Positions 14,387 to 38,828 of a DNA stretch of 64,000 bases are shown piece after piece. How positions within the stretch are numbered: the stretch's first letter is position 1; each line of letters begins with the position of its first letter. Origin of the DNA: a virus; IMG/VR virus record IMGVR_UViG_3300005965_000004, positions 1-64,000 of that record. One strand, given 5' to 3'. The translations under genes were made by a program, and so were the position numbers. The notes under the pieces were generated by a model. That model was given only the letters and a program-made list of their open reading frames with translations. It was not told the origin of the DNA and made no database searches.

Positions 14387-14395
14387 ATATGGTTT

Positions 14396-14560: not shown

Positions 14561-14651
14561 TGGCGGAGGCTAGAGGGATCGAACCTCTAAGGCATTTCTG
14601 CTCGCCGGTTTTCAAGACCGATTCCGTCGCCATCCATCGGATTGAGCCTCC
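14561..14651 (-). tRNA. tRNA-Ser(TGA)
   Basis: Acceptor GGAGGCT/AGCCTCC, loop CTTGAAA, long variable arm, G73, encoded CCA; T loop TTCGATC. Confidence 0.9.
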
Positions 14652-14660
14652 AAAATTTTA

Positions 14661-14957: not shown

Positions 14958-14969
14958 AAGCATACTCCT

Positions 14970-15107: not shown

Positions 15108-15117
15108 AGAATCCTCC

Positions 15118-15327
15118 TTATAAACTGTTCAAGACTTTTCTTGTTATTTCAAAATCATTCTTTATTTTAGAAAGCCTGTCTCTGAAATATTCCAAAACTT
15201 CTATCTTAGAGCTTTCTGATTTCTCATATTTACTTATTAAAGAATCATTAGCTATTATTTCACTTTCAATCTGTTCAACATAAAGCTCTAATCTCTCTCT
15301 GAGTGATGCTTCGTATACTCTTTTCAT
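15118..15327 (-). CDS. small coiled-coil protein, 69 aa
   Basis: From ATG 15327 the protein is almost all helix (EASLRERLELYVEQIESEII, KSESSKIEVLEYFRDRLSKI). Upstream codons in the frame lie in tRNA-Gly and are excluded. AAGAG is a weak ribosome binding site. No family named. Confidence 0.5.
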   Translation of the reverse strand: MKRVYEASLRERLELYVEQIESEIIANDSLISKYEKSESSKIEVLEYFRDRLSKIKNDFEITRKVLNSL

Positions 15328-15345
15328 ATAACTCTTAGTTAAAAT

Positions 15346-15424
15346 TGGTGAGGTAGACAGGATTTGAACCTGCGATATTCTGATTGGCAATCAGACCCAG
15401 TTGACCAGGCTGTGGCACTACCTC
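15346..15424 (-). tRNA. tRNA-Gly(GCC)
   Basis: Acceptor GAGGTAG/CTACCTC, loop TTGCCAA, T arm GCAGG-TTCAAAT-CCTGT, A73, encoded CCA. The D arm is longer than usual. Confidence 0.8.
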
Positions 15425-15440
15425 ATTTTTCATCATTAAA

Positions 15441-15515
15441 TGGTGCCCGTTGGTGGAATTGAACCACCGACCTCTTGTACGTCAAACAAGCATTCTTCCA
15501 CTGAACTAAACGGGC
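15441..15515 (-). tRNA. tRNA-Val(GAC)
   Basis: Canonical cloverleaf: acceptor GCCCGTT/AACGGGC, anticodon arm CTTGT-TTGACGT-ACAAG, T loop TTCAATT, A73, encoded CCA. Confidence 0.95.
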
Positions 15516-15518
15516 ATA

Positions 15519-15749
15519 TTATATTCTATCATTTTTGTTTATCTTTGTCAATAGATTTTTAAATTCTGGTTTATGTGGAAGCATACAACCAGAACAGTCT
15601 TTTACAACTTCCATCATCGTTCTCATGTATTTAGGCTTTCCACCGAAATTTTCACAATCTCTGTCATACAAAGGACATTTACAAAACTCACAACTAAACC
15701 TCACACAAGGATTGTCATGGCAAGGGTAAAACTCACAGCAATTTGCCAT
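15519..15749 (-). CDS. cysteine-rich small domain protein (PF04071 type)
   Basis: The order CCEFYPCHDNPC, FSCEFCKCPLYDRDCENFGG, VKDCSGCMLPHKP matches the cysteine-rich small domain family, in which the cysteines probably bind metal. Length fits. ATG 15749 is about ten bases after AAGGAG; an ATG at 15776 is possible. A late promoter box (15778) precedes it. The function of the family is not established. Confidence 0.75.
   Translation of the reverse strand: MANCCEFYPCHDNPCVRFSCEFCKCPLYDRDCENFGGKPKYMRTMMEVVKDCSGCMLPHKPEFKNLLTKINKNDRI
15523..15551 (-). promoter_or_regulatory. sigma70-like promoter of tRNA-Val/Gly
   Basis: TTGACA (15551-15546), 17-bp spacer ending ATGA, TAGAAT (15528-15523), eight bases upstream of tRNA-Val. 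Confidence 0.65.
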
Positions 15750-15777
15750 AGAAAATAACTCCTTATTCATTTTCAAT

Positions 15778-15785
15778 TATTTATA
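15778..15785 (-). promoter_or_regulatory. T4-type late promoter box TATAAATA
   Basis: Exact box 28 bases upstream of the cysteine-rich gene. Confidence 0.45.
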
Positions 15786-15794
15786 AAACAGGAT

Positions 15795-15889
15795 AGATAG
15801 TGTGCCGTCCACACGGCATCTTCCCCATAATGGCGGGGAAGATAGGAGTCGAATCTATTTTTGTTTGTTTTGCAGAAGCTATCCTTCAT
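15795..15889 (-). other. tRNA-like remnant followed by two hairpins
   Basis: A T-loop-like TTCGACT sits in a weak stem and is bounded by GAAGGATAG and CTATCTTC, which can pair with one bulge. It is followed by TCTTCCCC/GGGGAAGA and TGCCGT-GTGG-ACGGCA hairpins. No anticodon arm can be found. I read this as a decayed tRNA plus processing or termination hairpins. Confidence 0.4.
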
Positions 15890-15903
15890 TTACAAATAGA
15901 AAT

Positions 15904-15987
15904 TGGTAGGGGTGGTGGGATTTGAACCCACGTTTTCAACGTACCGCTACAGTTATACTGCTTATAAGACAGCACTGGTACACCCCT
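15904..15987 (-). tRNA. aberrant tRNA-like gene (possible anticodon TAT)
   Basis: Acceptor AGGGGTG/CACCCCT, T arm GTGGG-TTCAAAT-CCCAC, A73 and CCA are perfect. Between them there is no normal D arm: GTACC pairs with GGTAC 31 bases later, enclosing an arm with loop CTTATAA (TAT if read as anticodon). It may be a non-canonical tRNA or a decayed one. Confidence 0.5.
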
Positions 15988-16303
15988 ATATGTGAAGATT
16001 GTTCCTGTACCCGGGATTCTGTCATTGAAGACGTACATTTATCTAATGCCACTAACCCGACTATCACTGAGTTGCTCACCCTCTAAGTCTGTTTGTGTCG
16101 CTACCTAGGTAGTGAAAATGACTGTTCAGTTCACTCCAGACTTCTTCGAGAGGTCTGTGTCAGGATTTGAACCTGTTACCAACACCCGCCATACTGATTT
16201 GTTTTTTAGGTGCAGTCTCCTACCGTGAGCAAAGTAGTCCCGAAGTTCCTCCCCTGGCTACAAGAGCCTCAGGCGTACGTCCAGAACAATCTTCAAAGAA
16301 CAT
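15988..16303 (-). other. 316-base stretch without a clear gene
   Basis: No ORF with coding character. A T-arm-like ACAGG-TTCAAAT-CCTGA at about 16160-16180 has no matching acceptor strand nearby. There is a CTACC-TA-GGTAG hairpin near 16100 and a D-arm-like AACTCAGTGATAGTC near 16070. I read it as debris of one or two tRNAs with possible RNA structure. Confidence 0.4.
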
Positions 16304-16388
16304 TGGTAGCGGGGGTTGGATTTGAACCAACGTTTCGCAATCGCGACTTGGTTATGAGCCAAGTGAGTAGCCACTACTCTACCCCGCA
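16304..16388 (-). tRNA. initiator-like tRNA-Met(CAT) with extended variable arm
   Basis: Body closely follows bacterial fMet: GCGGGG/CCCCGC after a T1-T72 mismatch at the end of the acceptor, loop CTCATAA on a TTGG/CCAA stem, T loop TTCAAAT, A73, CCA. An unpaired 1-72 is the initiator hallmark. The variable region is 15 nt with a TCGC-GATT-GCGA hairpin, which fMet does not have. Confidence 0.8.
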
Positions 16389-16395
16389 GTAAATT

Positions 16396-16471
16396 TGGTA
16401 CCCCTACAAGGAATCGAACCTTGACCTTCAGGTTTAGGAAACCTGTGCGCTTTCCATTATACCATAGGGGT
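16396..16471 (-). tRNA. tRNA-Arg(CCT)
   Basis: Canonical: ACCCCTA/TAGGGGT, CAGGT-TTCCTAA-ACCTG, T loop TTCGATT, A73, encoded CCA. Confidence 0.95.
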
Positions 16472-16478
16472 ATAAAAT

Positions 16479-16553
16479 TGGCTGGGGTGGAAGGGTTCGA
16501 ACCTCCGACTTCCTGGTTCAGAGCCAGGCGTTCTTCCACTGAACTACACCCCA
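16479..16553 (-). tRNA. tRNA-Gln(CTG)
   Basis: Canonical: TGGGGTG/CACCCCA, CCTGG-CTCTGAA-CCAGG, T loop TTCGAAC, G73, encoded CCA. Confidence 0.95.
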
Positions 16554-16557
16554 ATAA

Positions 16558-16634
16558 TGGCACGCCTGGCAGGACTCAAACCTGCAACACTTCGCTTAGA
16601 AGGCGAATTTTCTATTCAATTGAAATACAGGCGC
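16558..16634 (-). tRNA. tRNA-Arg(TCT)
   Basis: Acceptor GCGCCTG/CAGGCGT with a terminal G-T, anticodon arm TTCGC-CTTCTAA-GCGAA, T loop TTTGAGT, G73, encoded CCA. Confidence 0.9.
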
Positions 16635-16643
16635 TTAAAATTT

Positions 16644-16718
16644 TGGTACTCCTACGGGGAGTCGAACCCCGGTTACATGGCTGAGAACCACGCGTCCTAA
16701 CCACTAGACGATAGGAGC
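16644..16718 (-). tRNA. tRNA-Glu(CTC)
   Basis: Acceptor GCTCCTA/TAGGAGT, loop TTCTCAG, T arm CGGGG-TTCGACT-CCCCG, A73, encoded CCA. Nearly identical outside the anticodon arm to tRNA-Glu(TTC) at 20280, so the two are duplicates. Confidence 0.95.
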
Positions 16719-16724
16719 AAAAAA

Positions 16725-16901
16725 TTACTTTTCGACCTTTGGAACAATTCTTCCTTCAAACTTATCTCCGTCAAGTACTCCATGAAATATAGGAATATCG
16801 CTACCTATTTTTCTTGCTTCATCTCTTGCTTGGTTCAATCTCTCAAAAGGTCCTACGTATTTATTATCGTTCACTACAAAAAAACCCTGTTTTGTACTCA
16901 T
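16725..16901 (-). CDS. small hypothetical protein, 58 aa
   Basis: From ATG 16901 (GGAG upstream) it reads MSTKQGFFVVNDNKYVGPFE, then LNQARDEARKIGSDIPIFHG. The pattern resembles short phage proteins with one beta-hairpin and one helix. It overlaps the zinc-ribbon gene upstream by four bases, so both are probably translated together. Function unknown. Confidence 0.6.
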   Translation of the reverse strand: MSTKQGFFVVNDNKYVGPFERLNQARDEARKIGSDIPIFHGVLDGDKFEGRIVPKVEK

Positions 16902-17086
16902 GTCAATGCTCCATTTCCGAAACCACATTCATCATCATGTTCTCTTACTAATTCTTCGATCCATTTGTCCCTCAAAGTATTTCTACAATTCCAACAATAA
17001 GGTAAAGCTTTATGGAATACAAAATGTACATTGACTTTACCAGGAACGAATTCTCCACATTCAACACATTTTACAAAGTACTTCAT
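16898..17086 (-). CDS. small zinc-ribbon protein, 62 aa
   Basis: CVECGEF and CWNCRNT give two CxxC pairs, and a later C may add to the site. AAGGAA precedes ATG 17086, which overlaps the stop of the gene upstream as ATGA. Function unknown. Confidence 0.6.
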   Translation of the reverse strand: MKYFVKCVECGEFVPGKVNVHFVFHKALPYCWNCRNTLRDKWIEELVREHDDECGFGNGALT

Positions 17087-17291
17087 TCGATGTTTTCCTT
17101 GTCAATCTCTTCATTATACTTACGTATATATCTCATTAGGAAAATAGCCTTGTCATCTCTCTTGAAAGTAGCATTTCCAATTTCCTTCTTGTCATGAATG
17201 GGTACAGGAAACCATTATCAGTCTTGTACCACATTTCACCATCTCTGTAATATTCAAAATGTACTTCCTGATCCTTAACAAGGTCTATCAT
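17083..17291 (-). pseudogene. small phage gene split by a one-base frameshift
   Basis: Frame one from ATG 17291 reads MIDLVKDQEVHFEYYRDGEM and WYKTDNGF; the family-like continuation VPIHDKKEIGNATFKRDD, KAIFLMRYIRKYNEEIDKEN is in the next frame and ends at 17083, overlapping the next start. One missing base near GGTTTCCTG (about 17208) explains both. Many T4-like phages have a protein with this GNATF...MRYIRK ending, function unknown. Confidence 0.6.
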
Positions 17292-17324
17292 TTTTATAAT
17301 GGACTTCTTCGATATTAATTATAA

Positions 17325-17400
17325 TGGCGGGACCGACGAGATTTGAACTCGCATTTTCCACATTGACAGTGTGGTGCTCTACCAGTTGAGCTACAGCCCC
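17325..17400 (-). tRNA. tRNA-Asp(GTC), first copy
   Basis: Acceptor GGGGCTG/CGGTCCC with wobbles, D stem GCTC/GAGC, anticodon arm CCACA-CTGTCAA-TGTGG, G73, encoded CCA. Confidence 0.9.
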
Positions 17401-17411
17401 GAAAAATTGTG

Positions 17412-17508
17412 GACGATGTGTGACGACTTGGCATCACTGACACAAACACGCCTTTGTGTCCCATCTCAATATCAGTGTTATGTGCGTGACAACTGATATT
17501 ACATCGAC
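17412..17508 (-). ncRNA. four-way-junction RNA candidate inside the tRNA array
   Basis: No tRNA or ORF fits. An outer helix (CGATGT 17506-17501 with ACATCG 17419-17414) closes three perfect hairpins: AATATCAGT/ACTGATATT (9 bp), GACACAAA/TTTGTGTC (8 bp) and GTGA/TCAC (4 bp). The shape is a cloverleaf, but no T loop or anticodon loop of normal size is present. It lies between tRNA-Arg(ACG) and tRNA-Asp(GTC). Confidence 0.6.
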
Positions 17509-17515
17509 CAATAAA

Positions 17516-17591
17516 TGGTACCTCTGAAAGGACTCGAACCCTTAACTCTTCGTTCGTAGCGAAGTATGATTTCCTGTTTCACTACAGAGGC
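17516..17591 (-). tRNA. tRNA-Arg(ACG)
   Basis: Canonical: GCCTCTG/CAGAGGT, CTTCG-CTACGAA-CGAAG, T loop TTCGAGT, A73, encoded CCA. A34 would need deamination to inosine to read all CGN codons it normally serves. Confidence 0.95.
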
Positions 17592-17597
17592 AAAAAT

Positions 17598-17674
17598 TGG
17601 TACCCAGTAGAGGATTCGAACCTCTGATCCCTTGCTTGTAAGGCAAGTGCCTTCTACCGCTCGGCCAACCGGGC
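17598..17674 (-). tRNA. tRNA-Val(TAC)
   Basis: Acceptor GCCCGGT/ACTGGGT, anticodon arm CTTGC-CTTACAA-GCAAG, T arm CAGAGG-type with loop TTCGAAT, A73, encoded CCA. Confidence 0.9.
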
Positions 17675-17681
17675 ATATATT

Positions 17682-17759
17682 TGGTACCGGGAGAGAGATT
17701 CGAACTCTCAAAAAACACTGGTTCTAAGCCAGCTGCATATGCCATTCTGCTACCCCGGC
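17682..17759 (-). tRNA. tRNA with Leu anticodon (TAG) but short variable loop
   Basis: Acceptor GCCGGGG/TCCCGGT, anticodon arm GCTGG-CTTAGAA-CCAGT, T arm GAGAG-TTCGAAT-CTCTC, A73, CCA. The variable loop is only 7 nt (GTTTTTT), whereas leucine tRNAs normally have a long arm. Amino acid identity is therefore uncertain. Confidence 0.8.
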
Positions 17760-17770
17760 ATTTTATCAAA

Positions 17771-17839
17771 TGGTGATGTCGGGGAGACTCGAACTCCCAT
17801 TACACTAAGCCGCGATACCACTGTTTAAAAGCCGACATT
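17771..17839 (-). tRNA. degenerate tRNA-like gene lacking a full anticodon arm
   Basis: T arm GGGAG-TTCGAGT-CTCCC, acceptor 3' strand, A73 and CCA are good, and the 5' acceptor pairs apart from one mismatch. Only about 34 bases separate acceptor and T arm, too few for both D and anticodon arms. Probably a tRNA that lost its anticodon arm. Confidence 0.45.
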
Positions 17840-17880
17840 TACAGACTCCTGTTAAAATTCTTATTGTGTGCAACATTTAT

Positions 17881-17909
17881 AATATAACATATTCCATGTT
17901 AATTGTCAA
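17881..17909 (-). promoter_or_regulatory. sigma70-like promoter inside the tRNA array
   Basis: TTGACA (17909-17904), 17-bp spacer ending ATGT, TATATT (17886-17881). Would drive the tRNAs from 17839 downward. Confidence 0.65.
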
Positions 17910-17992
17910 TGGCACCCGTGGTAGGATTCGAACCTACATTTTCAGTTCCAATTACCTTTACTGAGGTAGAAGCTCAGCAGGACTACACGGGC
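17910..17992 (-). tRNA. aberrant tRNA-like gene (possible anticodon TCT)
   Basis: Acceptor GCCCGTG/CACGGGT, T arm GTAGG-TTCGAAT-CCTAC, G73 and CCA are perfect. A five-pair arm CTGAG-CTTCTAC-CTCAG follows the acceptor after only eight bases, and 23 bases then precede the T arm. AGTCC can pair with GGAACT around it. This is the same abnormal plan as at 15904. Confidence 0.5.
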
Positions 17993-18006
17993 ATTTTTAG
18001 TATTTA

Positions 18007-18080
18007 TGGAGCTGCTATTCGGATTTGAACCGAAATCTTTTCCTTTACGAGAGGAAAGCTTTACATTAAGCTATAGCAGC
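18007..18080 (-). tRNA. tRNA-Thr(CGT)
   Basis: Canonical: GCTGCTA/TAGCAGC, TTTCCT-type arm with loop CTCGTAA, T loop TTCAAAT, T73, encoded CCA. Its first 15 bases also encode the end of the HNH gene at 18066. Confidence 0.9.
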
Positions 18081-18383
18081 GTATTTTCTATCTCTAAGTT
18101 TTCTTTGAATTCTTCCATTTCCACGATTCGCACCTTTAGAAGTTTTTGTTAAACTGTGGCAGTTTGGGCAAAGTAAAGTTAAATTTTCTTCTTTACTGTT
18201 ACTGGCATTTCCATCAATATGTTCAATTTCTAATGGAATATTTCTAGTAAATTCATTGACTTCGTTCCAACCACATCTTGAACATTTTGAATCAAACTTT
18301 TTGAAAATATATCTTTTTACATAATTGGAAAGATTTTCTTCTCCAACTTTATTTCCAGAAACTTTTTTTGTTTTTCCAATCAT
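18066..18383 (-). CDS. HNH homing endonuclease inserted between threonine tRNA genes
   Basis: The 105-residue protein has a full HNH module: CSRCGWNEVNEFTRNIPLEI, EHIDGNASNSKEENLTLLC, PNCHSLTKTSKGANRGNGR. This family is a common phage mobile endonuclease. ATG 18383 follows directly after the T stem of a truncated tRNA-Thr(GGT), and the stop codon lies within tRNA-Thr(CGT). There is no ribosome binding site, so it may be poorly translated. The position points to insertion into a tRNA gene. Confidence 0.8.
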   Translation of the reverse strand: MIGKTKKVSGNKVGEENLSNYVKRYIFKKFDSKCSRCGWNEVNEFTRNIPLEIEHIDGNASNSKEENLTLLCPNCHSLTKTSKGANRGNGRIQRKLRDRKYAAIA

Positions 18384-18384
18384 T

Positions 18385-18447
18385 GACAGAATCGAACTGT
18401 CGTTACTACTATACCAAAGTAGCTTTCTACCATTGAAATAAGCGGGC
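18385..18447 (-). pseudogene. tRNA-Thr(GGT) truncated by the HNH insertion
   Basis: From the 5' end, GCCCGCT, D arm TTTC-AATGGTA-GAAA, anticodon arm CTACT-TTGGTAT-AGTAG and T arm GACAG-TTCGATT-CTGTC are all intact. The 3' acceptor strand (expected AGCGGGC) and CCA are replaced by the start of the HNH ORF. Confidence 0.75.
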
Positions 18448-18467
18448 ATTTGTCAAGAATTTTTATA

Positions 18468-18554
18468 AGCTAGTGGACGGATTCGAACCGCCGCGTGGCT
18501 TTCGCCATCCTCCTTACAAGAGAGGCGCAATCGACCAGACTATGCGACACTAGC
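18468..18554 (-). tRNA. tRNA-Thr(TGT) with long variable arm
   Basis: Acceptor GCTAGTG/CACTAGC, anticodon arm CCTCT-CTTGTAA-GGAGG, T loop TTCGAAT, T73, no encoded CCA. The variable region is 16 nt with TGGC-GAAA-GCCA, a class II feature not expected for threonine. The D arm is like tRNA-Gly(TCC) at 21060. Confidence 0.8.
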
Positions 18555-18564
18555 ATATTAAATT

Positions 18565-18658
18565 TGGCGGAGAGCTAGAGAATCGAACTCTAACCGGCAT
18601 ATTTTATCCGGGACACTTTAGCAGAGTGCTCCAACGAACCAATATTTGGCTGCTCTCC
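18565..18658 (-). tRNA. tRNA-Ser(GCT)
   Basis: Acceptor GGAGAGC/GCTCTCC, loop CTGCTAA, long variable arm, T loop TTCGATT, G73, encoded CCA. Confidence 0.9.
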
Positions 18659-18677
18659 AAAATTAAATCAGAATGGA

Positions 18678-18719
18678 CTTTTGCTTTACTTGTGCTCTAC
18701 CAGTTGAGCTACCCTCCCA
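18678..18719 (-). pseudogene. 5' half of a tRNA
   Basis: GGGAGGG, TA, GCTC-AACTGGTA-GAGC is an intact acceptor 5' strand and D arm, as in tRNA-Asp, but no anticodon stem, T arm or 3' acceptor strand follows. Confidence 0.6.
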
Positions 18720-18722
18720 TAA

Positions 18723-18794
18723 TGGCGGAAGGGGCAGGACTTGAACCTACAACATCAAGTTGGACTTAGCGTTAATTGCTGTAGCCATTCTTCC
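18723..18794 (-). tRNA. degenerate tRNA-like gene
   Basis: T arm GTAGG-TTCAAGT-CCTGC, G73 and CCA are good. The acceptor pairs at five of seven positions and the 37-base interior has no convincing anticodon arm. Likely decaying. Confidence 0.4.
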
Positions 18795-18811
18795 TTTATT
18801 TTCAAAGAATT

Positions 18812-18886
18812 TGGTCGTAGCCCAGGGAATCGAACCCTGTTGAGACTGGATATGAGTCAGTCTAAGATGCCAACCTACCGACTACG
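18812..18886 (-). tRNA. tRNA-Met/Ile2(CAT)
   Basis: Acceptor CGTAGTC/GGCTACG, loop CTCATAT on an ACTG/CAGT stem with an A-C closing mismatch, T arm CAGGG-TTCGATT-CCCTG, A73, CCA. Elongator Met or lysidine-dependent Ile cannot be told apart from sequence alone. Confidence 0.8.
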
Positions 18887-18910
18887 AAAAATCGTTCTAT
18901 AGGATATATT

Positions 18911-18985
18911 TGGTGGAGACGGTGGGAGTCCAACCCACCAAAAAAACCTTGCAAGGGTTTCTCGCCTGCCCGACTGTTCGTCCCC
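18911..18985 (-). tRNA. tRNA-Ala(TGC), unusual anticodon stem
   Basis: Acceptor GGGGACG/CGTCTCC contains the G3-U70 pair and A73, the alanine identity set. The anticodon region is a palindrome (AAACCCTTGCAAGGGTTT), so the loop can be drawn with 6 or 8 bases; with a seven-base loop CTTGCAA the anticodon is TGC. The T loop is TTGGACT. Cys(GCA) is the less likely alternative. Confidence 0.65.
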
Positions 18986-18995
18986 ATTATCTCAC

Positions 18996-19050
18996 AGGAT
19001 GATTTTTTCTCTTTTACCATAAAGATTTTTGAGATTGCTGAACTCATCCT
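18996..19050 (-). ncRNA. Y-RNA-like element E3 inside the tRNA array
   Basis: AGGATGA (19050-19044) pairs with TCATCCT (19002-18996), with the shared 20-nt motif at 19052-19033 and an inner hairpin CTTTA-TGG-TAAAAG. It matches E2 in size and helix and differs by the compensatory A-T pair. It lies between tRNA-Pro and tRNA-Ala. Confidence 0.55.
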
Positions 19051-19069
19051 TCTGAGTTATTTACAAAAA

Positions 19070-19146
19070 TGGTCGGGATGGAGGGATTCGAACCCCCGAT
19101 TCCTCGGCCCCAAACCGAGTGACCTACCAAACTAGCCTACATCCCG
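19070..19146 (-). tRNA. tRNA-Pro(TGG)
   Basis: Canonical: CGGGATG/CATCCCG, CTCGG-TTTGGGG-CCGAG, T loop TTCGAAT, A73, encoded CCA. Confidence 0.95.
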
Positions 19147-19154
19147 ATGAAAAT

Positions 19155-19231
19155 TGGTATCGACGACCGGATTTGAACCGGTGATTTTCACATTGAAAGT
19201 GTGATGGATTAGACCACTATCCTACGCCGAC
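19155..19231 (-). tRNA. tRNA-Glu(TTC), first copy
   Basis: Acceptor GTCGGCG/CGTCGAT with wobbles, arm TCACA-CTTTCAA-TGTGA, T arm ACCGG-TTCAAAT-CCGGT, A73, encoded CCA. Confidence 0.9.
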
Positions 19232-19243
19232 ATTGATATCTAT

Positions 19244-19272
19244 AATATAATAGATTCAAGAGTCTTTGTCAA
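19244..19272 (-). promoter_or_regulatory. sigma70-like promoter of tRNA-Glu(TTC) and following tRNAs
   Basis: TTGACA (19272-19267), 17-bp spacer, TATATT (19249-19244), 13 bases from the tRNA. It overlaps the end of the small gene upstream. Confidence 0.65.
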
Positions 19273-19411
19273 GTCCTTTCTTCATTTTTTCTTCTTCAAG
19301 CATCTTCATTGTGAATCTCGATTCAGCTATAACTTCATAGTAACTGTCATCCACGAATCTTTCAAGAAGACTAATGATCCTCATTACTCTTTCTATTTTT
19401 CTGTCTTCCAT
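19256..19411 (-). CDS. small hypothetical protein, 51 aa
   Basis: AAGGAA before ATG 19411 supports the start, just downstream of the kinase stop. The protein is helical and charged (MEDRKIERVMRIISLLERFV, KMLEEEKMKKGLDKDS). Similar short proteins are common in T4-like phages, without known role. Confidence 0.6.
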   Translation of the reverse strand: MEDRKIERVMRIISLLERFVDDSYYEVIAESRFTMKMLEEEKMKKGLDKDS

Positions 19412-19423
19412 TTGTCGAGTTCC

Positions 19424-20083
19424 TTATATAACAATATCAGCAAAAGGTTTTAGCTTCTCGACTTCCTTACATTCCATTTCAACAACTTTTGCCCTGAAGT
19501 CGCTTGTCTCGTTTTCTTTCTTCCTTTTGTTTCTGAAGTCAAATGTCGATTTTGGGTCTGTGTTTCCAATATGTATTCTAACATCAGAACAAATCTTATT
19601 ATGACATCCATACAAACCTTCAAAAATCAAAATGTCACAATTAGACTTATCTATGCTTGCCTGTATAATAGCAGTAGAGAACTTTGACATTATGAAGAAC
19701 TGTATGTTATTATATAGTGGATTTTTGAATGTTTCAAAAGTCCAACAAAGTCTCTTCCAATCCCATTCATTAGGACCAACAGTATCCAAGTTTTCTTTTC
19801 TCACATCATTTCTTATATGCCACGGTGTTTTGTAATAATCATCACCAGAAATAATGTGACATTGCTTTCCAGAATTAATGAAGTATTCTGCTAGCTTGAA
19901 TGCTGTTTCTGACTTCCTAGTTCCAGAAATTCCACCAACTGAAATTATAGCTTTTTTCAGCAAAATTTTCTTGTCAAGTCTGTCAATTATTCTTTTGGCA
20001 TTCTTCTCACTAACACTGTCCCAAACTAAATAATCTCCAAACATAAGCTTTCCCTTTTTTCTTGAAAGAGTGTTAAAAATCAT
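19424..20083 (-). CDS. uridine kinase-like P-loop kinase
   Basis: The P-loop is ISVGGISGTRKSETAFKLAE at about 47-66, followed by HIISGDDYYKTPWHIRND, which resembles the acceptor-site motif of uridine kinases (DDYY) and phosphoribulokinases. A second strand (CDILIFEGLYG) fits the Walker B region. Usual family length is about 210, as here (219 aa). An internal ATG at 20044 after AGGGAAAG is an alternative start. The substrate (nucleoside or other) is not determined. It interrupts the tRNA array. Confidence 0.6.
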   Translation of the reverse strand: MIFNTLSRKKGKLMFGDYLVWDSVSEKNAKRIIDRLDKKILLKKAIISVGGISGTRKSETAFKLAEYFINSGKQCHIISGDDYYKTPWHIRNDVRKENLDTVGPNEWDWKRLCWTFETFKNPLYNNIQFFIMSKFSTAIIQASIDKSNCDILIFEGLYGCHNKICSDVRIHIGNTDPKSTFDFRNKRKKENETSDFRAKVVEMECKEVEKLKPFADIVI

Positions 20084-20108
20084 CGCACTCTTATTTAGGG
20101 ATTTGAAA

Positions 20109-20184
20109 TGGTGCCGCCTTTGGGAATCGAACCCAACTCTTCACGGGCTTCAACCGAACGCTTCTCCAGTATAGCTTAGACGGC
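20109..20184 (-). tRNA. tRNA-Phe(GAA)
   Basis: Acceptor GCCGTCT/AGGCGGC, loop TTGAAGC (stem with one mismatch), T arm TTGGG-TTCGATT-CCCAA, A73, encoded CCA. Confidence 0.85.
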
Positions 20185-20193
20185 ATAAAATTA

Positions 20194-20270
20194 TGGTGGA
20201 TGGACTCTGAATTGAACCGAGGACACCCTGGATTTTTAGTCCAGTGCTCTACCAGCTGAGCTACCCAGCC
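20194..20270 (-). tRNA. tRNA with anticodon AAA, partly degenerate
   Basis: D arm GCTC/GAGC and anticodon arm CTGGA-CTAAAAA-TCCAG are perfect, but the acceptor has a C3-T70 mismatch and the T stem a G-A mismatch. AAA would read UUU, with unmodified A34, which is rare; tRNA-Phe(GAA) is next door. Possibly mutated from another tRNA. Confidence 0.65.
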
Positions 20271-20279
20271 ATAAAATAT

Positions 20280-20354
20280 TGGTACTCCCACGGGGAGTCG
20301 AACCCCGGTTACAGGACTGAAAACCCTGTGTCCTAGCCACTAGACGATAGGAGC
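20280..20354 (-). tRNA. tRNA-Glu(TTC), second copy
   Basis: GCTCCTA/TGGGAGT, loop TTTTCAG, T arm CGGGG-TTCGACT-CCCCG, A73, CCA. Duplicate of tRNA-Glu(CTC) at 16644 with changed anticodon. Confidence 0.9.
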
Positions 20355-20360
20355 ATAAAT

Positions 20361-20447
20361 TGGTACTGCGGGTGGGATTTGAACCCACGTCGGCTTTCAC
20401 CACACCTTATCAGAGTGTTGCCTGACACCGGACTCGGCTACCGCAGT
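20361..20447 (-). tRNA. tRNA-Ile(GAT) with long variable arm
   Basis: ACTGCGG/CCGCAGT, arm ACACT-CTGATAA-GGTGT, T arm GTGGG-TTCAAAT-CCCAC, A73, CCA. The variable region is 13 nt with GGT-GAAA-GCC, and the D arm is of class II type. Isoleucine tRNAs normally have a short variable loop. Confidence 0.8.
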
Positions 20448-20457
20448 ATAAAAATTC

Positions 20458-20533
20458 AGGATGGTTAGTTTGATGGATTTGAACCATCTAAGATGTCGAT
20501 TAGAAGTCGATGTTGTTATGCTGAAACCATCCT
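20458..20533 (-). tRNA. aberrant tRNA-like gene (possible Arg TCT)
   Basis: The ends pair over nine bases (AGGATGGTT/AACCATCCT). Inside are an arm TCGA-CTTCTAA-TCGA (TCT) and T arm GATGG-TTCAAAT-CCATC, but six to seven extra bases separate T arm and outer stem and the D arm is short. The first bases resemble the E1-E3 motif (AAGGATG..TTCAGCA). Confidence 0.5.
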
Positions 20534-20551
20534 TCTCTTATTTACAAAATT

Positions 20552-20637
20552 TGGAGTCCCGGTAGGGAATTTCACCCATTATACTTTTAATACTTGGCCG
20601 TTCCTCTCCAAGCATCTACGCCTTTTACGCTCGCGAC
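20552..20637 (-). tRNA. degenerate tRNA-like gene
   Basis: T73-CCA end and a weak acceptor (GTCGCGA against CCGGGAC, two mismatches), a T loop without TTC (TGAAATT) and no clear anticodon arm. Class II length (86 nt). Confidence 0.35.
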
Positions 20638-20643
20638 AAAATT

Positions 20644-20732
20644 TGGAGCACCCGGTGGGATTCGAACCCACGCCCTCAATGGGGTCATACAGTTTTGCAG
20701 ACTGCGGCCTTAATCCACTTGGCTACGGATGC
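20644..20732 (-). tRNA. tRNA-Cys(GCA) with long variable arm
   Basis: GCATCCG/CGGGTGC, arm GCAGT-CTGCAAA-ACTGT, T arm GTGGG-TTCGAAT-CCCAC, T73 (the cysteine discriminator), CCA. The variable region is 17 nt with a CCC/GGG hairpin, unusual for cysteine. Confidence 0.8.
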
Positions 20733-20740
20733 TTAAAAAT

Positions 20741-20816
20741 TGGGGTGACATTTCGGACCCGACCCGAACCCTACAGCTTCACAGGCTGCAATGCTTCCAA
20801 CTACACCAATGTCACC
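20741..20816 (-). tRNA. tRNA-His(GTG)
   Basis: GTGACAT/ATGTCAC with an extra 5' G opposite C73, the histidine hallmark; arm GCAGC-CTGTGAA-GCTGT; T stem TTCGG/CCGAA with an atypical loop GTCGGGT; encoded CCA. Confidence 0.85.
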
Positions 20817-21055
20817 ATAAATAACGGGGACGTGCTTCCGTTACACTTCATTTCCTAGTAGGTATCAAGACTTACATTTGAATTACTTTACAATTGACAA
20901 CATTTCGAAGACTAGCCAATTGTGATTAGATTGCGCACTCCAATCAAATTCAAAAATAACGCTTAATACGTTTCAAAAAGCTTGGAATCGAACCAAGTCC
21001 TTCTCCATGAATTTCATACCATATAAAAAGGTATGGTAGAATTTGTACCTACTTT
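20817..21055 (-). other. tRNA debris and hairpins
   Basis: A T arm CTTGG-TTCGATT-CCAAG (20997-20981) has no acceptor partner. Next to it is a CATACC/GGTATG hairpin. A GATTG-GAGTGCG-CAATC arm near 20930 has anticodon-arm size. No ORF. Probably one or two decayed tRNAs. Confidence 0.4.
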
Positions 21056-21059
21056 AATT

Positions 21060-21139
21060 TGGAGCACCCGGTGGGATTCGAACCCACGATGATTTCCTGC
21101 TTGGAAGGCAGGCGCAATCGACCACTATGCGACGGGTGC
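21060..21139 (-). tRNA. tRNA-Gly(TCC)
   Basis: GCACCCG/CGGGTGC, CCTGC-CTTCCAA-GCAGG, T loop TTCGAAT, T73, encoded CCA. Confidence 0.9.
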
Positions 21140-21153
21140 GTATTTACAAAAAT

Positions 21154-21241
21154 TGGCTGATGAGGAGGGATTCGAACCCCCGACGGGCTTTCGCCATCTG
21201 ATTAACAGTCAGACCCCTGCTGCCAACTCGGGTACTCATCA
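21154..21241 (-). tRNA. tRNA-Asn(GTT) with long variable arm
   Basis: TGATGAG/CTCATCA, arm TCTGA-CTGTTAA-TCAGA, T arm GGGGG-TTCGAAT-CCCTC, G73, CCA. Variable region 15 nt with GGC-GAAA-GCC. With G73 and a long arm the body looks serine-like while the anticodon is Asn. Confidence 0.8.
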
Positions 21242-21284
21242 GTAAATTATATTAATCCTATTTTTATCAATCTTTTCTTAACGG

Positions 21285-21317
21285 ATAGGTATATTTTTAC
21301 ATGAAATATCTAACTGT
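21285..21317. repeat. 33-bp exact direct repeat, copy 2
   Basis: Identical to 318-350. It lies between tRNA-Asn and tRNA-Asp, where no other coding sequence is present; the copied start codon leads to a stop after seven codons. Confidence 0.9.
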
Positions 21318-21327
21318 TAATTAATTT

Positions 21328-21406
21328 TGGCAGTCTCGACGGGATTTGAACCCGCGACCTTCTCGTTGACAGCGAGAAATCCTAGACCTGACTAGACCAC
21401 GAGACT
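21328..21406 (-). tRNA. tRNA-Asp(GTC), second copy
   Basis: AGTCTCG/CGAGACT, arm TCTCG-CTGTCAA-CGAGA, T arm GCGGG-TTCAAAT-CCCGT, G73, encoded CCA. D loop longer than in the first copy. Confidence 0.9.
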
Positions 21407-21413
21407 GTGAAAT

Positions 21414-21483
21414 TGGTCTGGACGGTAGAATTCGAACCTACGTGATCCCGGTTCCAGGCCGCGTGACTCAAGCCATACTAGCA
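21414..21483 (-). tRNA. degenerate tRNA-like gene
   Basis: T arm GTAGG-TTCGAAT-TCTAC, A73 and CCA are good. The 5' acceptor strand is not found: the expected region adjoins the 3' end of tRNA-Lys(TTT), so it may have been overwritten by that neighbour. Confidence 0.4.
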
Positions 21484-21567
21484 TACACCCGGATGGATTC
21501 GAACCATCGATGCGCTTTCGCGTCCACATTAAAAGTGTGGTACTCTCGACCTCTGAGTGACGGGTGC
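21484..21567 (-). tRNA. tRNA-Lys(TTT) with long variable arm
   Basis: GCACCCG/CGGGTGT, arm CCACA-CTTTTAA-TGTGG, T arm GATGG-TTCGAAT-CCATC, A73, no encoded CCA (TGC follows). Variable region 15 nt with CGC-GAAA-GCG, not expected for lysine. Confidence 0.8.
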
Positions 21568-21749
21568 GTAAAAAATTTAGTAATAATTATCTCAAACCAT
21601 AATATTCATGTTACATTGAACTATCTTTGTACCTTTTTCTTGTTTACCAACAAAGGATTTGGCACAAAACTTACTACAAAAATCTCCATTACTCCACTTA
21701 CTATATTTTTTCAGTGAACTTTTTTCAAACTTTTTTACAGGTTGGAACT

Positions 21750-21824
21750 TGGCAGACCCGGAGGGATTCGAACCCACATCTGCTGGTTTTGGAGACCAGT
21801 GTGTTACCGTTACACCACGGACCT
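21750..21824 (-). tRNA. tRNA-Trp(CCA)
   Basis: AGGTCCG/CGGGTCT with wobbles, arm CTGGT-CTCCAAA-ACCAG, T loop TTCGAAT (one T-stem mismatch), G73, encoded CCA. Confidence 0.85.
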
Positions 21825-21836
21825 GTAAAGAAATCT

Positions 21837-21911
21837 TGGTTACCGGGGCAGGATTCGAACCCACATCCTTTGAGTCAAAGTCAAACATCCTAGCCATTGG
21901 ACGACCCGGCA
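21837..21911 (-). tRNA. tRNA-Gln(TTG)
   Basis: TGCCGGG/CCCGGTA, arm TTTGA-CTTTGAC-TCAAA, T loop TTCGAAT, A73, encoded CCA. Confidence 0.9.
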
Positions 21912-21924
21912 ATAAATTTACTTA

Positions 21925-22009
21925 TGGTGGGCATGGACGGAGTTGAACCGCCACAGTCGAAAGACGGGTGGGTTACAGCCACTTGAGCTCGCCAATGCTC
22001 AGCCTACCC
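21925..22009 (-). tRNA. tRNA-Tyr(GTA), first copy
   Basis: GGGTAGG/CATGCCC with one mismatch, D stem GAGC/GCTC, arm GTGG-CTGTAAC-CCAC, long variable arm GTC-TTTC-GAC (normal for tyrosine), A73, CCA. Confidence 0.85.
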
Positions 22010-22026
22010 ATCAAAAGTAAATTTAT

Positions 22027-22113
22027 TGGTTCTGCGGGAAGGATTCAAACCTTCATAGCCATAAAGTCGACGGATTTACAGTCCGCTGATTTCGTCCACT
22101 TACCATCCGCAGA
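22027..22113 (-). tRNA. tRNA-Tyr(GTA), second copy
   Basis: TCTGCGG/CCGCAGA, arm GCGGA-CTGTAAA-TCCGT, long variable arm, T loop TTTGAAT, A73, encoded CCA. Confidence 0.9.
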
Positions 22114-22121
22114 ATAAAATT

Positions 22122-22199
22122 TGGTACCCCCGTCTGGACTCGAACCAGAACCTTACAGATTAAGAGTCTGCCATGCTAATCCAATTACAACACGGAGGC
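22122..22199 (-). tRNA. tRNA-Lys(CTT)
   Basis: GCCTCCG/CGGGGGT, arm GCAGA-CTCTTAA-TCTGT, T loop TTCGAGT, A73, CCA; short variable loop as expected. Confidence 0.9.
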
Positions 22200-22206
22200 A
22201 AAAGTG

Positions 22207-22263
22207 AGTGTGTTACTAAAATCTCTTTAGCGTTTTTCGCAAAATGATTCTTTCACACACTCT
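22207..22263 (-). other. hairpin of unknown role
   Basis: GAGTGTGT pairs with ACACACTC over eight bases around a 41-nt interior holding a GCG/CGC mini-hairpin. The rest of 22264-22365 has short inverted repeats (TGTAAA/TTTACA) but no gene. Confidence 0.4.
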
Positions 22264-22365
22264 TATATGTAAAATTTACATCTTCAATGTAAATTCACAT
22301 TCAGTACAAGTTGCTTTCGCAACAATGTGCTTACGTCAGTTTCCAGAAATGTCAAAAAGCCAAAA

Positions 22366-22397
22366 AAAGAGAGTCAGATTTTTACCTGACTCTCTTT
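22366..22397 (-). terminator. rho-independent terminator
   Basis: Perfect 12-bp stem (AAAGAGAGTCAG/CTGACTCTCTTT) with an 8-nt loop; on the minus strand it is followed by seven T. It closes the small transcription unit 22425-22655, so the tRNAs below 22200 need another promoter. Confidence 0.9.
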
Positions 22398-22424
22398 GAT
22401 ATTCCAAGTATCTTATGAGTCAGG

Positions 22425-22550
22425 TTAGGCAGTGCCTCCTTCTGGTCTATCTGTAATATTAGCACTGAGCCAATTATAGACCACGGATATGGCACTAAAA
22501 TAATGCTGCTTGCCTTGTTTTTGAATTGTCTGTTTACAAATGCGTTCCAT
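22425..22550 (-). CDS. small hypothetical protein, 41 aa
   Basis: ATG 22550 follows AAAGG by seven bases. The protein (MERICKQTIQKQGKQHYFSA, VVYNWLSANITDRPEGGTA) ends 27 bases before the terminator stem. It is the only ORF of this short unit behind tRNA(CAT). No family recognised. Confidence 0.5.
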   Translation of the reverse strand: MERICKQTIQKQGKQHYFSAISVVYNWLSANITDRPEGGTA

Positions 22551-22582
22551 AAGATTACCTTTTCTTTCCTTTTCCTTTTGGT

Positions 22583-22655
22583 TGCAACGGGTTGGAATCG
22601 AACCAACTTTTCTCTGCTTATGAGACAGAGCGAGATGCCAACCTCTTCCCCCTGC
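22583..22655 (-). tRNA. tRNA-Met/Ile2(CAT), head of the array
   Basis: GCAGGGG/CCGTTGC (one mismatch), D stem GAG/CTC, loop CTCATAA on CTCTG/CAGAG, T arm GTTGG-TTCGATT-CCAAC, A73; ACC rather than CCA is encoded. Confidence 0.8.
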
Positions 22656-32314: not shown

Positions 32315-33934
32315 TTACCTCCGCAGTTTGTTATTGAGATGTACAAATATTCTATTTTGTAATTCATCAGAAAGTTTATCAATAATTGATTCTATGTCAC
32401 CATTTTCTGTAATCTTCTCTGCTATATTAAATACTGACATCACAGGACGAGCATATTCTTTACCATCTTCAGTTTTGAAAAACTTAAAATCATCAAATAC
32501 AAGTGGGATATTTTCTTGGCACCATTTTAATAAGTTGAGCATGACACCACGAATTTCCCAATGAGCAAACTTATCACATCGCATAGTAAATATATGTCTA
32601 AGTTCTCTCAAATTAGATTTGAAAACTATTTCTGTTTTAATATTACTAGGAAGAAACAATCTTCTATCATCATTTTTATATATTCCTTTTAAAGATTCAT
32701 AACAAGAAATTTCATTCTGAGTATTATACACATAATTATATTGTCTTTCTATATCGTCAAATGGAGGACTAACAACATTATACTTATCACAAAAATTATT
32801 GAACTTAGAATTAATCTTATCATCTATATTAGATAATGAAGATGCCATAGATAATTTTCTTTCCATTATTAGTTCGAAAGAAAATTCACTATACATCCAA
32901 TCAACTATTTTTTTAATATCTTTTTTTCCTTGATAAACCAATTGAAAACTTTTAGTTTTAGAATAAATATTTTTTATATCAACATTACAATTTTTATGTA
33001 ATACAATAGATAACCATTCTAAAAATTCTTTACAACCAGAGGTAAAAGTTAATTGTCTTTTCCAATTATTTTTATACCAACCTATAAAACCACCCCCTTC
33101 AAAAAATCCTCTTATAAAACTTGACAAATATTCTTTTGGCAAATTTTTTTCTATAAGATTATATCTGAGATTTAGTGATTTATTTTCTTCACATCCATAA
33201 ACATTTTTGAATAAATTATACAAAGATTTAGAACTTATATTAAGTTTAATTAATCCTTCTTTTTCATATGGATATATATTACCACCAATAATAAAATGTA
33301 ATTGTTGTAAATATTCTATATCTTTTATTTTAAATGAGATAACATAATTAGAACCATTATTATATAAATTTCCATTTGCAAATAAAAATCCTAATATCTG
33401 AGCATAAACATGATTAATATTTTCTGGTTCAAAATTATTAACAATATCAGAAGAAAAACAAAAATCTCCACGTTCTCTAATTTGGATATTATTATTTTTA
33501 AGTATATTAATTATAGTTTGTGAGTTACATCCATATAATTTTGATATTTGATTAGCCGATTTGCCAGTTTGATAAATATCTATTATATCTTTTTCATCCT
33601 CAATAGAAAACTTACAAAAAATATTTCTTTTATTTTGAATACTATCATATGAACAATATCTCGTACTTTCTTGGGCATATGACAACAATCTATGTCTAAC
33701 TAATTCATGAGTTAAATATCTGCTTATATTACTTAATTTAACTGTTAAATGAGCGAACTCAAACATAGCAAAATGGCCTCTATTCATCAAATTCTTAACT
33801 AACTTTTTATCAGTCTCAGGAGTAGCTTTATCCTGAGACTGATAACATGTTCTTGCTGCTGTTGCTATGTCTTTAATCACATCTTCAGGCTTAGTCAGCA
33901 CTTCAAATTTACCAGCATTTTTCAATATTTTCAT
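32315..33934 (-). CDS. thyX: FAD-dependent thymidylate synthase ThyX with in-frame LAGLIDADG insertion
   Basis: ThyX motifs flank the protein: AHLTVKLSNISRYLTHELVR, then LVRHRLLSYAQESTRY (R-H-R-x7-S-x-R) at about 77-92, and at the end FLPSNIKTEIVFKSNLRELR with HIFTMRCDKFAHWEIRG. Between about residues 108 and 395 lies a helix-turn-helix (TGKSANQISKLYGCNSQTII) and two LAGLIDADG helices (ILGFLFANGNLY; FIRGFFEGGGFIG). The total of 539 residues is about 290 over the usual ThyX. No intein splice signals (block A cysteine start, or HN before C/S/T) are visible, so how active ThyX is made is unclear. Confidence 0.85.
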   Translation of the reverse strand: MKILKNAGKFEVLTKPEDVIKDIATAARTCYQSQDKATPETDKKLVKNLMNRGHFAMFEFAHLTVKLSNISRYLTHELVRHRLLSYAQESTRYCSYDSIQNKRNIFCKFSIEDEKDIIDIYQTGKSANQISKLYGCNSQTIINILKNNNIQIRERGDFCFSSDIVNNFEPENINHVYAQILGFLFANGNLYNNGSNYVISFKIKDIEYLQQLHFIIGGNIYPYEKEGLIKLNISSKSLYNLFKNVYGCEENKSLNLRYNLIEKNLPKEYLSSFIRGFFEGGGFIGWYKNNWKRQLTFTSGCKEFLEWLSIVLHKNCNVDIKNIYSKTKSFQLVYQGKKDIKKIVDWMYSEFSFELIMERKLSMASSLSNIDDKINSKFNNFCDKYNVVSPPFDDIERQYNYVYNTQNEISCYESLKGIYKNDDRRLFLPSNIKTEIVFKSNLRELRHIFTMRCDKFAHWEIRGVMLNLLKWCQENIPLVFDDFKFFKTEDGKEYARPVMSVFNIAEKITENGDIESIIDKLSDELQNRIFVHLNNKLRR

Positions 33935-37007: not shown

Positions 37008-37472
37008 CTACTTATTGAAAAGCTCCCTTTCGGTTATTATCTTGAATTCGAGACCTCTCTTAGCGCAAAATTCCCTTGCTGCATCCCATTTACATCTGTT
37101 AGTGACGTAAGTGTGCGCCTCGTAGATATATCTCTTTCGGGCTTTTCTGTTGTTGTTTTTGGGTTTCTTTGGTGGTCTTGTTTGTGATGCCGGTTTAACT
37201 TCAATGACGAACTTCCTTTCATTTCCATTTTTATCAACTTCCTCAAAATAAAAATCTGGATAATATCTGTGAATCCTTTTGTCAATAGCGCTTAGATAAG
37301 GTATTTCTAAACACTCAAACCCCCATTTCTTTATACTTGGAGAGTGGTCACAAAAGTAACAAAATCTAGATTCCCAAGAACTTCTGTACACTGGGTTTTT
37401 GGCTCCAATATACTTTTTCTTATTCTCAACTTTATATTCACCAATGTAAAATCCACTTTTTCCCTTCTCCAT
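37008..37472 (-). CDS. 4: head completion nuclease-like protein (T4 gp4)
   Basis: YRSSWESRFCYFCDHSPSIK, then YYPDFYFEEVDKNGNERKF and VIEVKPASQTRPPKKPK match T4 gp4/gp50: S-x-W-E near the start, then P-D-F and E-V-K-P, a PD-(D/E)XK nuclease arrangement. gp4 is needed to finish the head before tail joining. 154 residues as expected. Confidence 0.8.
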   Translation of the reverse strand: MEKGKSGFYIGEYKVENKKKYIGAKNPVYRSSWESRFCYFCDHSPSIKKWGFECLEIPYLSAIDKRIHRYYPDFYFEEVDKNGNERKFVIEVKPASQTRPPKKPKNNNRKARKRYIYEAHTYVTNRCKWDAAREFCAKRGLEFKIITERELFNK

Positions 37473-37481: not shown

Positions 37482-38399
37482 CTACTTTAGCGATTTTATT
37501 AATGGGCCATAGTTAGACCAATCATCCATCATCTTATTCAATCTATTTCTGGAGAAGAACTTCATAAGCTTAGAACCGTCTATATCTTTAATCTCGTAAT
37601 CGTTGTACGTTTTCAATATACCTTTTGACAGTTCTTTTGGAATGAAGTCAAAGTCAATAAGAATTCTATTTCTCAGATAATTGTTCTTGACTTCTTCATT
37701 CTCCTCAAGAAAATCATCCAATCCTTTCTTCAGTATAGCTTCAGCAGTTGCTTTACCTGTTCTTGGCTTTATTGCGGGAATAGTATCGCTCTTATCACCA
37801 GTGATAACTTTTATATCAAGTTCTCTCTGTGGATTTATACAGTTTACGATCTTATTCTTTATAGGATCAAACTGCTTATTGTTCTTATCAATCAACAACT
37901 GATGAAGGTCTTTATCAGTCGATACTATCACATTCTGACAAGAGCTAAACTGCTCTTTTACAAGAACGGCAATAATGTCATCTGCCTCTGATCTTGGATG
38001 TTCTATTGTATATATAGTCGAAAACGTTTCTTTTATTTCTTCTCTGAATTCATTGAAAACCGGAAAGAATTTCTGAAAGTCAACAACAGCCTTGTCTCTT
38101 GCTTGTCTTCTATTATTTTTATATCCATCAAAGTGGTCATATCTCCAACTTCCTTTTGTGTCAAAAGCGAGAATAACTTTCTCAGGATTAAACTTTTCTA
38201 TTGTTGAGAAAAGACTATTCATGAATAAATGTCTCCAAAAGAAAAAAAAATTTTCGTTATCTTGAGGATTCATAAAGATAGCTGAGAATAATGTTCTGTA
38301 GGCTAGATTATGCCCATCAAACAATAAAGTTTTTTTCTGATTTTTTATTACTTGTTGATCTTCAACAGAAAATAATTCTGATAATGAACTTTTATTCAT
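37482..38399 (-). CDS. rnh: RNase H / 5'-3' exonuclease, FEN-1 family (T4 rnh)
   Basis: LLFDGHNLAYRTLFSA, VILAFDTKGSWRYDHF, RSEADDIIAVLVKEQF, VIVSTDKDLHQLLID and ITGDKSDTIPAIKPRTGKAT are the ordered acidic motifs of the T4 RNase H/FEN nuclease. It removes RNA primers of Okazaki fragments. 305 residues equals T4 Rnh. Confidence 0.9.
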   Translation of the reverse strand: MNKSSLSELFSVEDQQVIKNQKKTLLFDGHNLAYRTLFSAIFMNPQDNENFFFFWRHLFMNSLFSTIEKFNPEKVILAFDTKGSWRYDHFDGYKNNRRQARDKAVVDFQKFFPVFNEFREEIKETFSTIYTIEHPRSEADDIIAVLVKEQFSSCQNVIVSTDKDLHQLLIDKNNKQFDPIKNKIVNCINPQRELDIKVITGDKSDTIPAIKPRTGKATAEAILKKGLDDFLEENEEVKNNYLRNRILIDFDFIPKELSKGILKTYNDYEIKDIDGSKLMKFFSRNRLNKMMDDWSNYGPLIKSLK

Positions 38400-38828
38400 T
38401 TGTAAACTCCTTTTTAAGTGTTTTATGTATTATAACATTTTTATATTCAATCTCCAAAACTTTTTTTCTTCTAAATGTTTCTTTAATATTATGTCTTTCT
38501 TTTTTAGAAAAATATTCATAAAAATCCATTCTATTAGATAATACATATATCCATTTACTCGAAGGATTATTATAACCTTGTTTAGCTAAACTTATTTTTT
38601 GTTTATGTTCTTCTGAATATTTTCTTCCTTTTAATTTTTTACTGAGATTTTCTTTAAATTCTTTGCTTCGTATTTTTCCAATGTTTTTTCCAATCATAGA
38701 TTGACGTTGTTTTATTTTACTTTCTTCACTTTTTGTTTTACCAATCATTGATTGACGTTGTTTTTCCTTTTGTTCTTCTGAAATAATTTTACCTTATTGG
38801 TGGTTTTGTAGATTATATAAGTACTCAT
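38392..38828 (-). pseudogene. GIY-YIG homing endonuclease relic with NUMOD repeats
   Basis: ATG 38828 starts MSTYIIYKTTNK, the beginning of a GIY-YIG domain, but the catalytic domain is deleted and the frame fails. In another frame the C-terminal NUMOD3-type repeats remain (MIGKTKSEESKIKQRQSM, then KGRKYSEEHKQKISLAKQGY). The leader 38829-38937 resembles that of the relic at 1407. It sits beside RNase H. Confidence 0.7.

Follow-up and report, generated by a model that had tools for sequence, protein, structure and literature searches.

In-frame insertion of an HTH-LAGLIDADG endonuclease in phage ThyX without a recognisable splicing device

The general view is that a homing element can be harmless in an essential gene only if it brings a splicing device. 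We assign the ThyX fusions described here to a known but poorly understood kind of element, namely homing endonucleases inserted in frame and left unspliced. A lone LAGLIDADG domain is known from the DNA methylases of the Taj_79 group of actinophages (PMC9957025; discussed in PMC11855218). As in ThyX, LAGLIDADG lies in frame within a phage enzyme in which neither an intein splicing domain nor an intron was detected, and prediction gives it a domain of its own next to the fold of the enzyme (PMC9957025). The methylases provide another host gene and represent one F-cluster phage group with largely vertical inheritance (PMC9957025), whereas the ThyX fusions arose at a single site taken by no fewer than two endonuclease lineages in five or more phage lineages, possess an N-terminal helix-turn-helix (HTH) and include one dead copy. 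The ShiLan domain of phage methylases is an HNH endonuclease encoded in another reading frame (PMC11855218), while the ThyX insert is in the frame of its host gene. Insertion of mobE in nrdA of Aeromonas phage Aeh1 likewise places a homing endonuclease in a phage gene for nucleotide metabolism, at a position critical for function and with no intron or intein, but it splits the gene into separate coding regions (PMC2988022); the ThyX fusion stays one polypeptide.

Phage ThyX also hosts true Hint inteins, which are selfish like the inserts described here, lie near the same active-site motif and carry LAGLIDADG or HNH enzymes, but possess the Hint splicing domains that are absent from all six fusions. 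They were found in L003 (3001-4848), L055 (1732-3435), L008/L066, L069 (1752-3299) and L155 (1959-3563), at sites located after SRGF, between QE and STRY, or after S-x-R-Y; the L155 site, after RLASF, was placed by eye. The HTH-LAGLIDADG endonucleases of the phrog_4645 family and the ThyX inserts form one protein family over almost their full length, yet nearly all the others are free-standing, while the ThyX inserts are embedded. A literature search, limited in coverage and no proof of priority, found no description of such an insertion in ThyX.

Layout of the fusion gene

The window, i.e., the whole stretch of 64,000 nucleotides of viral DNA analysed, carries a ThyX::HTH-LAGLIDADG fusion ORF of 539 aa (32315..33934; minus strand, as are all parts of this ORF given below), which runs from an ATG start to a TAA stop with no interruption of the frame; the first-pass annotation had its coordinates and its open frame right. 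Two stretches of this ORF are recognised by Thy1 of Pfam (E 1e-39) and by TIGR02170 (E 2e-36), one lying within aa 13-113 and the other at nt 32504-32773, with the phrog_4645 endonuclease in between. The ThyX N-terminal part (aa 1-93, 33656..33934) extends through the RHR and S-T-R-Y motifs with its invariant residues kept, and the C-terminal part (aa 386-539 and the stop codon, 32315..32779) contains the second Thy1 stretch and retains R425, R443, R452 and H458. The in-frame insert that separates them (about aa 94-385, 876 bp, 32780..33655) is lacking in L004, L014 and the majority of other ThyX, and its ends are uncertain by about 10-15 codons on either side. Its length fits the earlier estimate of about 290 residues, but its position had to be corrected: it follows S-T-R-Y (aa 90-93), about ten residues past the RHR motif after which it had been placed. 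S-T-R-Y is the dUMP-binding motif; its counterparts in T. maritima ThyX, S88, R90 and Y91, are established as residues that act in binding dUMP and were mutated in solved structures (3g4a, 5ios and 8req are among the Foldseek matches).

The HTH and the two LAGLIDADG helices noticed at first within ThyX are confirmed by a match of aa 102-368 to the phrog_4645 'endonuclease' profile (positions 36-304 of 308, E 7.5e-33), and because this profile is covered nearly end to end, the insert is essentially a whole HTH-LAGLIDADG protein. The HTH domain (about aa 107-155, 33470..33616) gives weak matches to HTH_Cbp1, HTH_23 and CENP-B_N, and the double-motif LAGLIDADG domain (about aa 172-368, 32831..33421) matches PF14528 (E 1.4e-4 with the insert alone) in addition to phrog_4645. 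The insert is free of stop codons in its own frame, while each of the five other frames has 13-52, so its open frame is not a matter of chance. Its first in-frame ATG/GTG/TTG codon falls at aa 238 in the window and at aa 214 in the related fusion L020, in both cases beyond the HTH and the first LAGLIDADG motif; since no in-frame start precedes the endonuclease core in either, the endonuclease can be made only from the thyX start. The region is 100% identical at the DNA level in two further IMG/VR records, which rejects an assembly error or a chimera of one contig, and searches of DNA and plasmid collections found no close relative. Near thyX, the 85-kb virus record encodes a T4-like clamp loader, ribonucleotide reductase and MazG. 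No second ThyX or ThyA that might act as a backup was found in this record or in the 340-kb record of the related fusion L063.

Structures were predicted with AlphaFold as monomers and scored moderately (mean pLDDT about 73). In the window model, the ThyX halves and the HTH are confident, with a pLDDT >90 across most of the N-terminal part and of 91-95 over the three helices of the HTH, while the linkers (aa 92-107, 353-368 and 385-387) have a pLDDT below 50 and the LAGLIDADG part is poor. Foldseek aligned this monomer model to solved ThyX across both halves (TM 0.6-0.7). The L063 model shows a well-formed double LAGLIDADG domain that matches the monomeric nucleases I-Tsp061I, I-AniI and I-DmoI. 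Structure prediction of the junctions, which had been suggested as a check, thus returned low-confidence linkers, and the models are consistent with tolerance of the insert by ThyX without being proof of it.

Search for a splicing device

In the window insert, HTH homology begins at about aa 107, some 15 aa past the upstream junction, the LAGLIDADG match ends at aa 368, and ThyX resumes about 18 aa further on, at about aa 386. A Hint domain needs roughly 130 aa, so that these spare residues leave no room for one. The splicing profiles TIGR01443, TIGR01445 and PF14890 gave no match in the window, L020 or L063, whereas L008 and L069, which served as positive controls, were matched. Because L003 and L055, both recognisable as inteins by eye, escaped the same profiles, the argument against an intein rests mainly on the lack of room. 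In addition, no Cys1/Ser1 or HN-C/S/T pattern is common to the six fusions. An intein was thus rejected on the Pfam/NCBIfam splicing models with their positive controls and on the lack of room, and the absence of intein signals reported by the first-pass annotation holds, with no Hint profile match in the window. Its proposal of a degenerate or novel intein, in which protein splicing would proceed without a recognisable Hint domain, could draw on the location of the insert at a conserved active-site motif of ThyX, as is typical for inteins, and on the true inteins at nearby ThyX sites in other phages, including that of L069 at the same S-x-R-Y junction. However, those neighbouring inteins are recognisable by their Hint domains, and in view of the space available, the profile results and the missing splice-site pattern, this reading appears extremely improbable. 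The likeness of the two junctions (FC-x-K), which had also been pointed out, is not common to the five related fusions; it was discarded as a signal and is probably a coincidence.

Removal at the RNA level would require an unrecognised intron, for instance one of group I trimmed by 'core creep' or one of another type, with its ORF in frame with the exons, and the same endonuclease family is indeed found among annotated intron-encoded enzymes of Staphylococcus phages. Against this, Rfam intron families had no match in the window at the gathering level or at E up to 10, where only below-threshold chance matches to unrelated RNA families appeared, nor in L020 and L063 at E up to 1. Nearly all of the insert is protein-coding, so that a ribozyme core would have no space. 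In six of six records the open frame also continues into the 3' exon, and the window insert shows no unusual RNA folding (z -1.3). In the close pair L151-L231, the dS of the insert (0.27) equals that of its flanks (0.29 and 0.23), and synonymous sites as free as those of the flanks argue against an embedded ribozyme. Group I and group II introns were rejected on Rfam searches at several settings together with the RNA fold, and an intron of unrecognised form seems improbable. Neither of the findings that had been named as contradicting the initial description, a clear intein profile and a homologue with a group I intron, was obtained.

A hidden endonuclease of the ShiLan type was ruled out by the lack of a long ORF in any other frame of the window insert: there is none of 50 aa or more, and the longest open stretch, start codon ignored, is 77 codons.

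Recurrence and selection at one ThyX site

ThyX and the insert family were surveyed in IMG/VR and GTDB genome contigs. Five more ThyX proteins carry a homologous insert at the same residue with no Hint domain (L020, L063, L151, L231 and L242), L242 being a 3.5-kb contig filed under a Bacteroides MAG and possibly from a phage. None of the five has a stop in frame, whereas each of their other frames has many, and homology among inserts is clear for window-L063 (E 3e-15), window-L020 (E 6e-15) and L151-L063 (E 3e-49). In a ThyX tree of 128 sequences, insert carriers are scattered among insert-free relatives: L020 is sister to the insert-free L014, the window branches near the insert-free L004 and L014, L063 lies in a distant clade, and L242 and L151/L231 belong to another clade, among insert-free relatives. 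This distribution of same-residue inserts points to recurrent, mobile, in-frame insertion, and the sequences show this spot of ThyX invaded in at least five phage lineages. The endonuclease tree unites L063, L151, L231 and L242 in a single clade (0.98) despite their widely differing ThyX and places L020 with free-standing enzymes (0.88), without resolving the position of the window (0.74). The separation of the L063-type clade from L020 indicates that at least two endonuclease lineages took this site.

Nearly all other members of the phrog_4645 family surveyed are free-standing ORFs of about 270-340 aa, and only the ThyX inserts are embedded by >100 aa on both sides. A few endonuclease relatives are fused at one end, to a dUTPase-like C-terminal part in L138/L140 (2767-4041) and to methyltransferase-like parts in L103 (2809-4860) and L109 (1396-3411), all recognised by eye. 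Free-standing relatives also occur within about 2 kb of thyX, in L086/L087 (thyX 5620-6258, endonuclease 2941-3780) and in L102 (thyX 597-1571, endonuclease 2977-3699), where neighbour-targeting homing is possible. Several viral ThyX (L053, L056-L060, L064 and L068) form a group with an extra segment of ~60-110 aa inserted around aa 64-76, which seems to have no relation to the endonuclease.

Selection was measured as dN/dS in one close pair, L151-L231, both of which carry the insert, and proved purifying on all three modules, with no indels across them. The ThyX-N module has a dN/dS of 0 (16 synonymous and 0 nonsynonymous changes, dS 0.29), the endonuclease insert 0.061 (38 and 10, dS 0.27), and ThyX-C 0.042 (12 and 2, dS 0.23), while the 31-codon linker, with few changes, reaches 0.73. 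The low value for ThyX-C indicates that the downstream half is under constraint while the insert is present, and that of the insert indicates that it is constrained as a protein. The earlier suggestion that the endonuclease abolishes ThyX is contradicted for the family by this selection on the downstream half. For the window or L020 against insert-free relatives, the dN/dS of ThyX-C is similar to that of insert-free pairs, with dS near saturation. The catalytic Asp residues of both LAGLIDADG motifs are present in L020, L063, L151, L231 and L242, and L020, whose downstream junction has diverged, also keeps 44 of 44 near-invariant ThyX columns. In some lineages, both the endonuclease and ThyX look functional still.

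The reading that we consider likely is that a homing endonuclease resides inside ThyX by structural tolerance instead of splicing. An HTH-LAGLIDADG gene of the normally free-standing phrog_4645 family would have inserted in frame just after the S-T-R-Y codons of thyX, bringing no protein- or RNA-splicing module, and the fusion would be translated as one polypeptide from the thyX start. ThyX would fold from its two halves, and the endonuclease would form a domain of its own, tethered to a loop by flexible linkers. In the active ancestral state, as in L020, L063, L151, L231 and L242, the endonuclease would cut uninterrupted thyX at a highly conserved site, and repair of the cut allele would copy it in, as for inteins, host function being kept by tolerance and not by excision. 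Intact members would accordingly cut DNA, and the unspliced protein would presumably have ThyX activity, although an insertion adjoining the dUMP-binding residues could lower or abolish it. The case for homing of the thyX insert consists of the scattered distribution and the mosaic tract described below. Of the first-pass possibilities, the bifunctional protein is best supported in the form of an unspliced in-frame domain insertion, but its endonuclease half is catalytically dead in the window. If the fusions are active unspliced, a host protein with a permissive loop would make a splicing device unnecessary. Such insertions would represent a third lifestyle, next to those of inteins and introns, and could plausibly be a stage in the origin of inteins, with the endonuclease coming first and Hint later. 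For ThyX, many structures are solved and complementation is simple to assay, and its fusions make the question directly testable by comparing intact L020, L063, L151 and L242 with the dead window copy.

State of the window copy and its mosaic tract

A catalytic Asp ends each LAGLIDADG motif and is required for catalysis. Both are gone from the window copy, a feature missed by the first-pass annotation. Codon 187 of the first motif (GFLFANG, 33374..33376) encodes Asn, making the window the sole exception to Asp among 73 aligned sequences (D in 72/73), and codon 281 of the second motif (GFFEGGG, 33092..33094) encodes Gly where 73 of 75 aligned relatives have D. Among 77 distinct relatives, the window copy alone lacks both residues. 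By established LAGLIDADG catalysis, it is thus no longer an active endonuclease and, judged from its motifs, is a fossil, a defunct copy. Homing would be over in this lineage, and we propose that a continuing need for the downstream part of ThyX keeps the frame open.

On the ThyX side, all alignment-invariant residues are retained in the window, including the RHRxxS and S-x-R-Y motifs (R80, H81, R82, S85, S90, R92, Y93, R425, R443, R452 and H458). Four of 44 near-invariant columns are changed (F67L, G73Y, A424R and W445L), compared with none in L020 and two in L063, and these departures exceed those of most relatives. Together with the position of the insertion next to the active site and the already dead endonuclease, they would fit a ThyX inactivated by the insertion in the window copy alone, the gene decaying while the phage relies on host thymidylate synthase. 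Such a decay is nevertheless unlikely, as the 539 codons are free of stops and frameshifts, none of the strictly invariant residues of ThyX is lost, the end segments are 80-97% identical to insert-free relatives, and the same sequence occurs in three records. A further reading starts from WhiA, which keeps a dead LAGLIDADG domain with an HTH. By this analogy, the dead HTH-LAGLIDADG module of the window might be kept for nucleic-acid binding, turning ThyX into a bifunctional enzyme-regulator that would, for example, bind its own gene or mRNA, or sit at a phage replication site; we regard this as doubtful.

The insert is surrounded by a divergent AT-rich tract (about aa 46-452, 32579..33799), recognised by column differences and GC3. 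Identity of the window to L004, L014 and L020 is 80-97% over aa 1-45 and 453-482, and falls to 67-71% over aa 46-93, 50% over aa 425-452 and about 20% over aa 398-424. Where L014 and L004 share a residue, 23 of 70 columns inside aa 46-452 are different in the window, against 1 of 62 outside (Fisher p 1.5e-6); for L020 the counts are 4 of 70 inside and 1 of 62 outside. GC3 of the window ORF is about 0.25 outside the tract and 0.03-0.17 inside, and several replaced residues (e.g., K433-T-E435) match distant ThyX clades. This mosaic suggests exon co-conversion from a divergent donor ThyX during a past homing event, which the tract may record, though faster evolution near the insert could also account for it instead of gene conversion.

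The phage genome in the window is rich in homing-type genes. Other nuclease-type genes encode an HNH_5 protein (9632-10273), a TnsA-like endonuclease N-terminal domain (37008-37472) and a NUMOD3 protein (38392-38748). About 37 tRNA genes, interspersed with short ORFs, form one array on the minus strand (13785-22655), in which a tRNA-Phe with anticodon AAA lies beside one with GAA (20109-20270) and one of the short ORFs is an HNH endonuclease (18066-18449).
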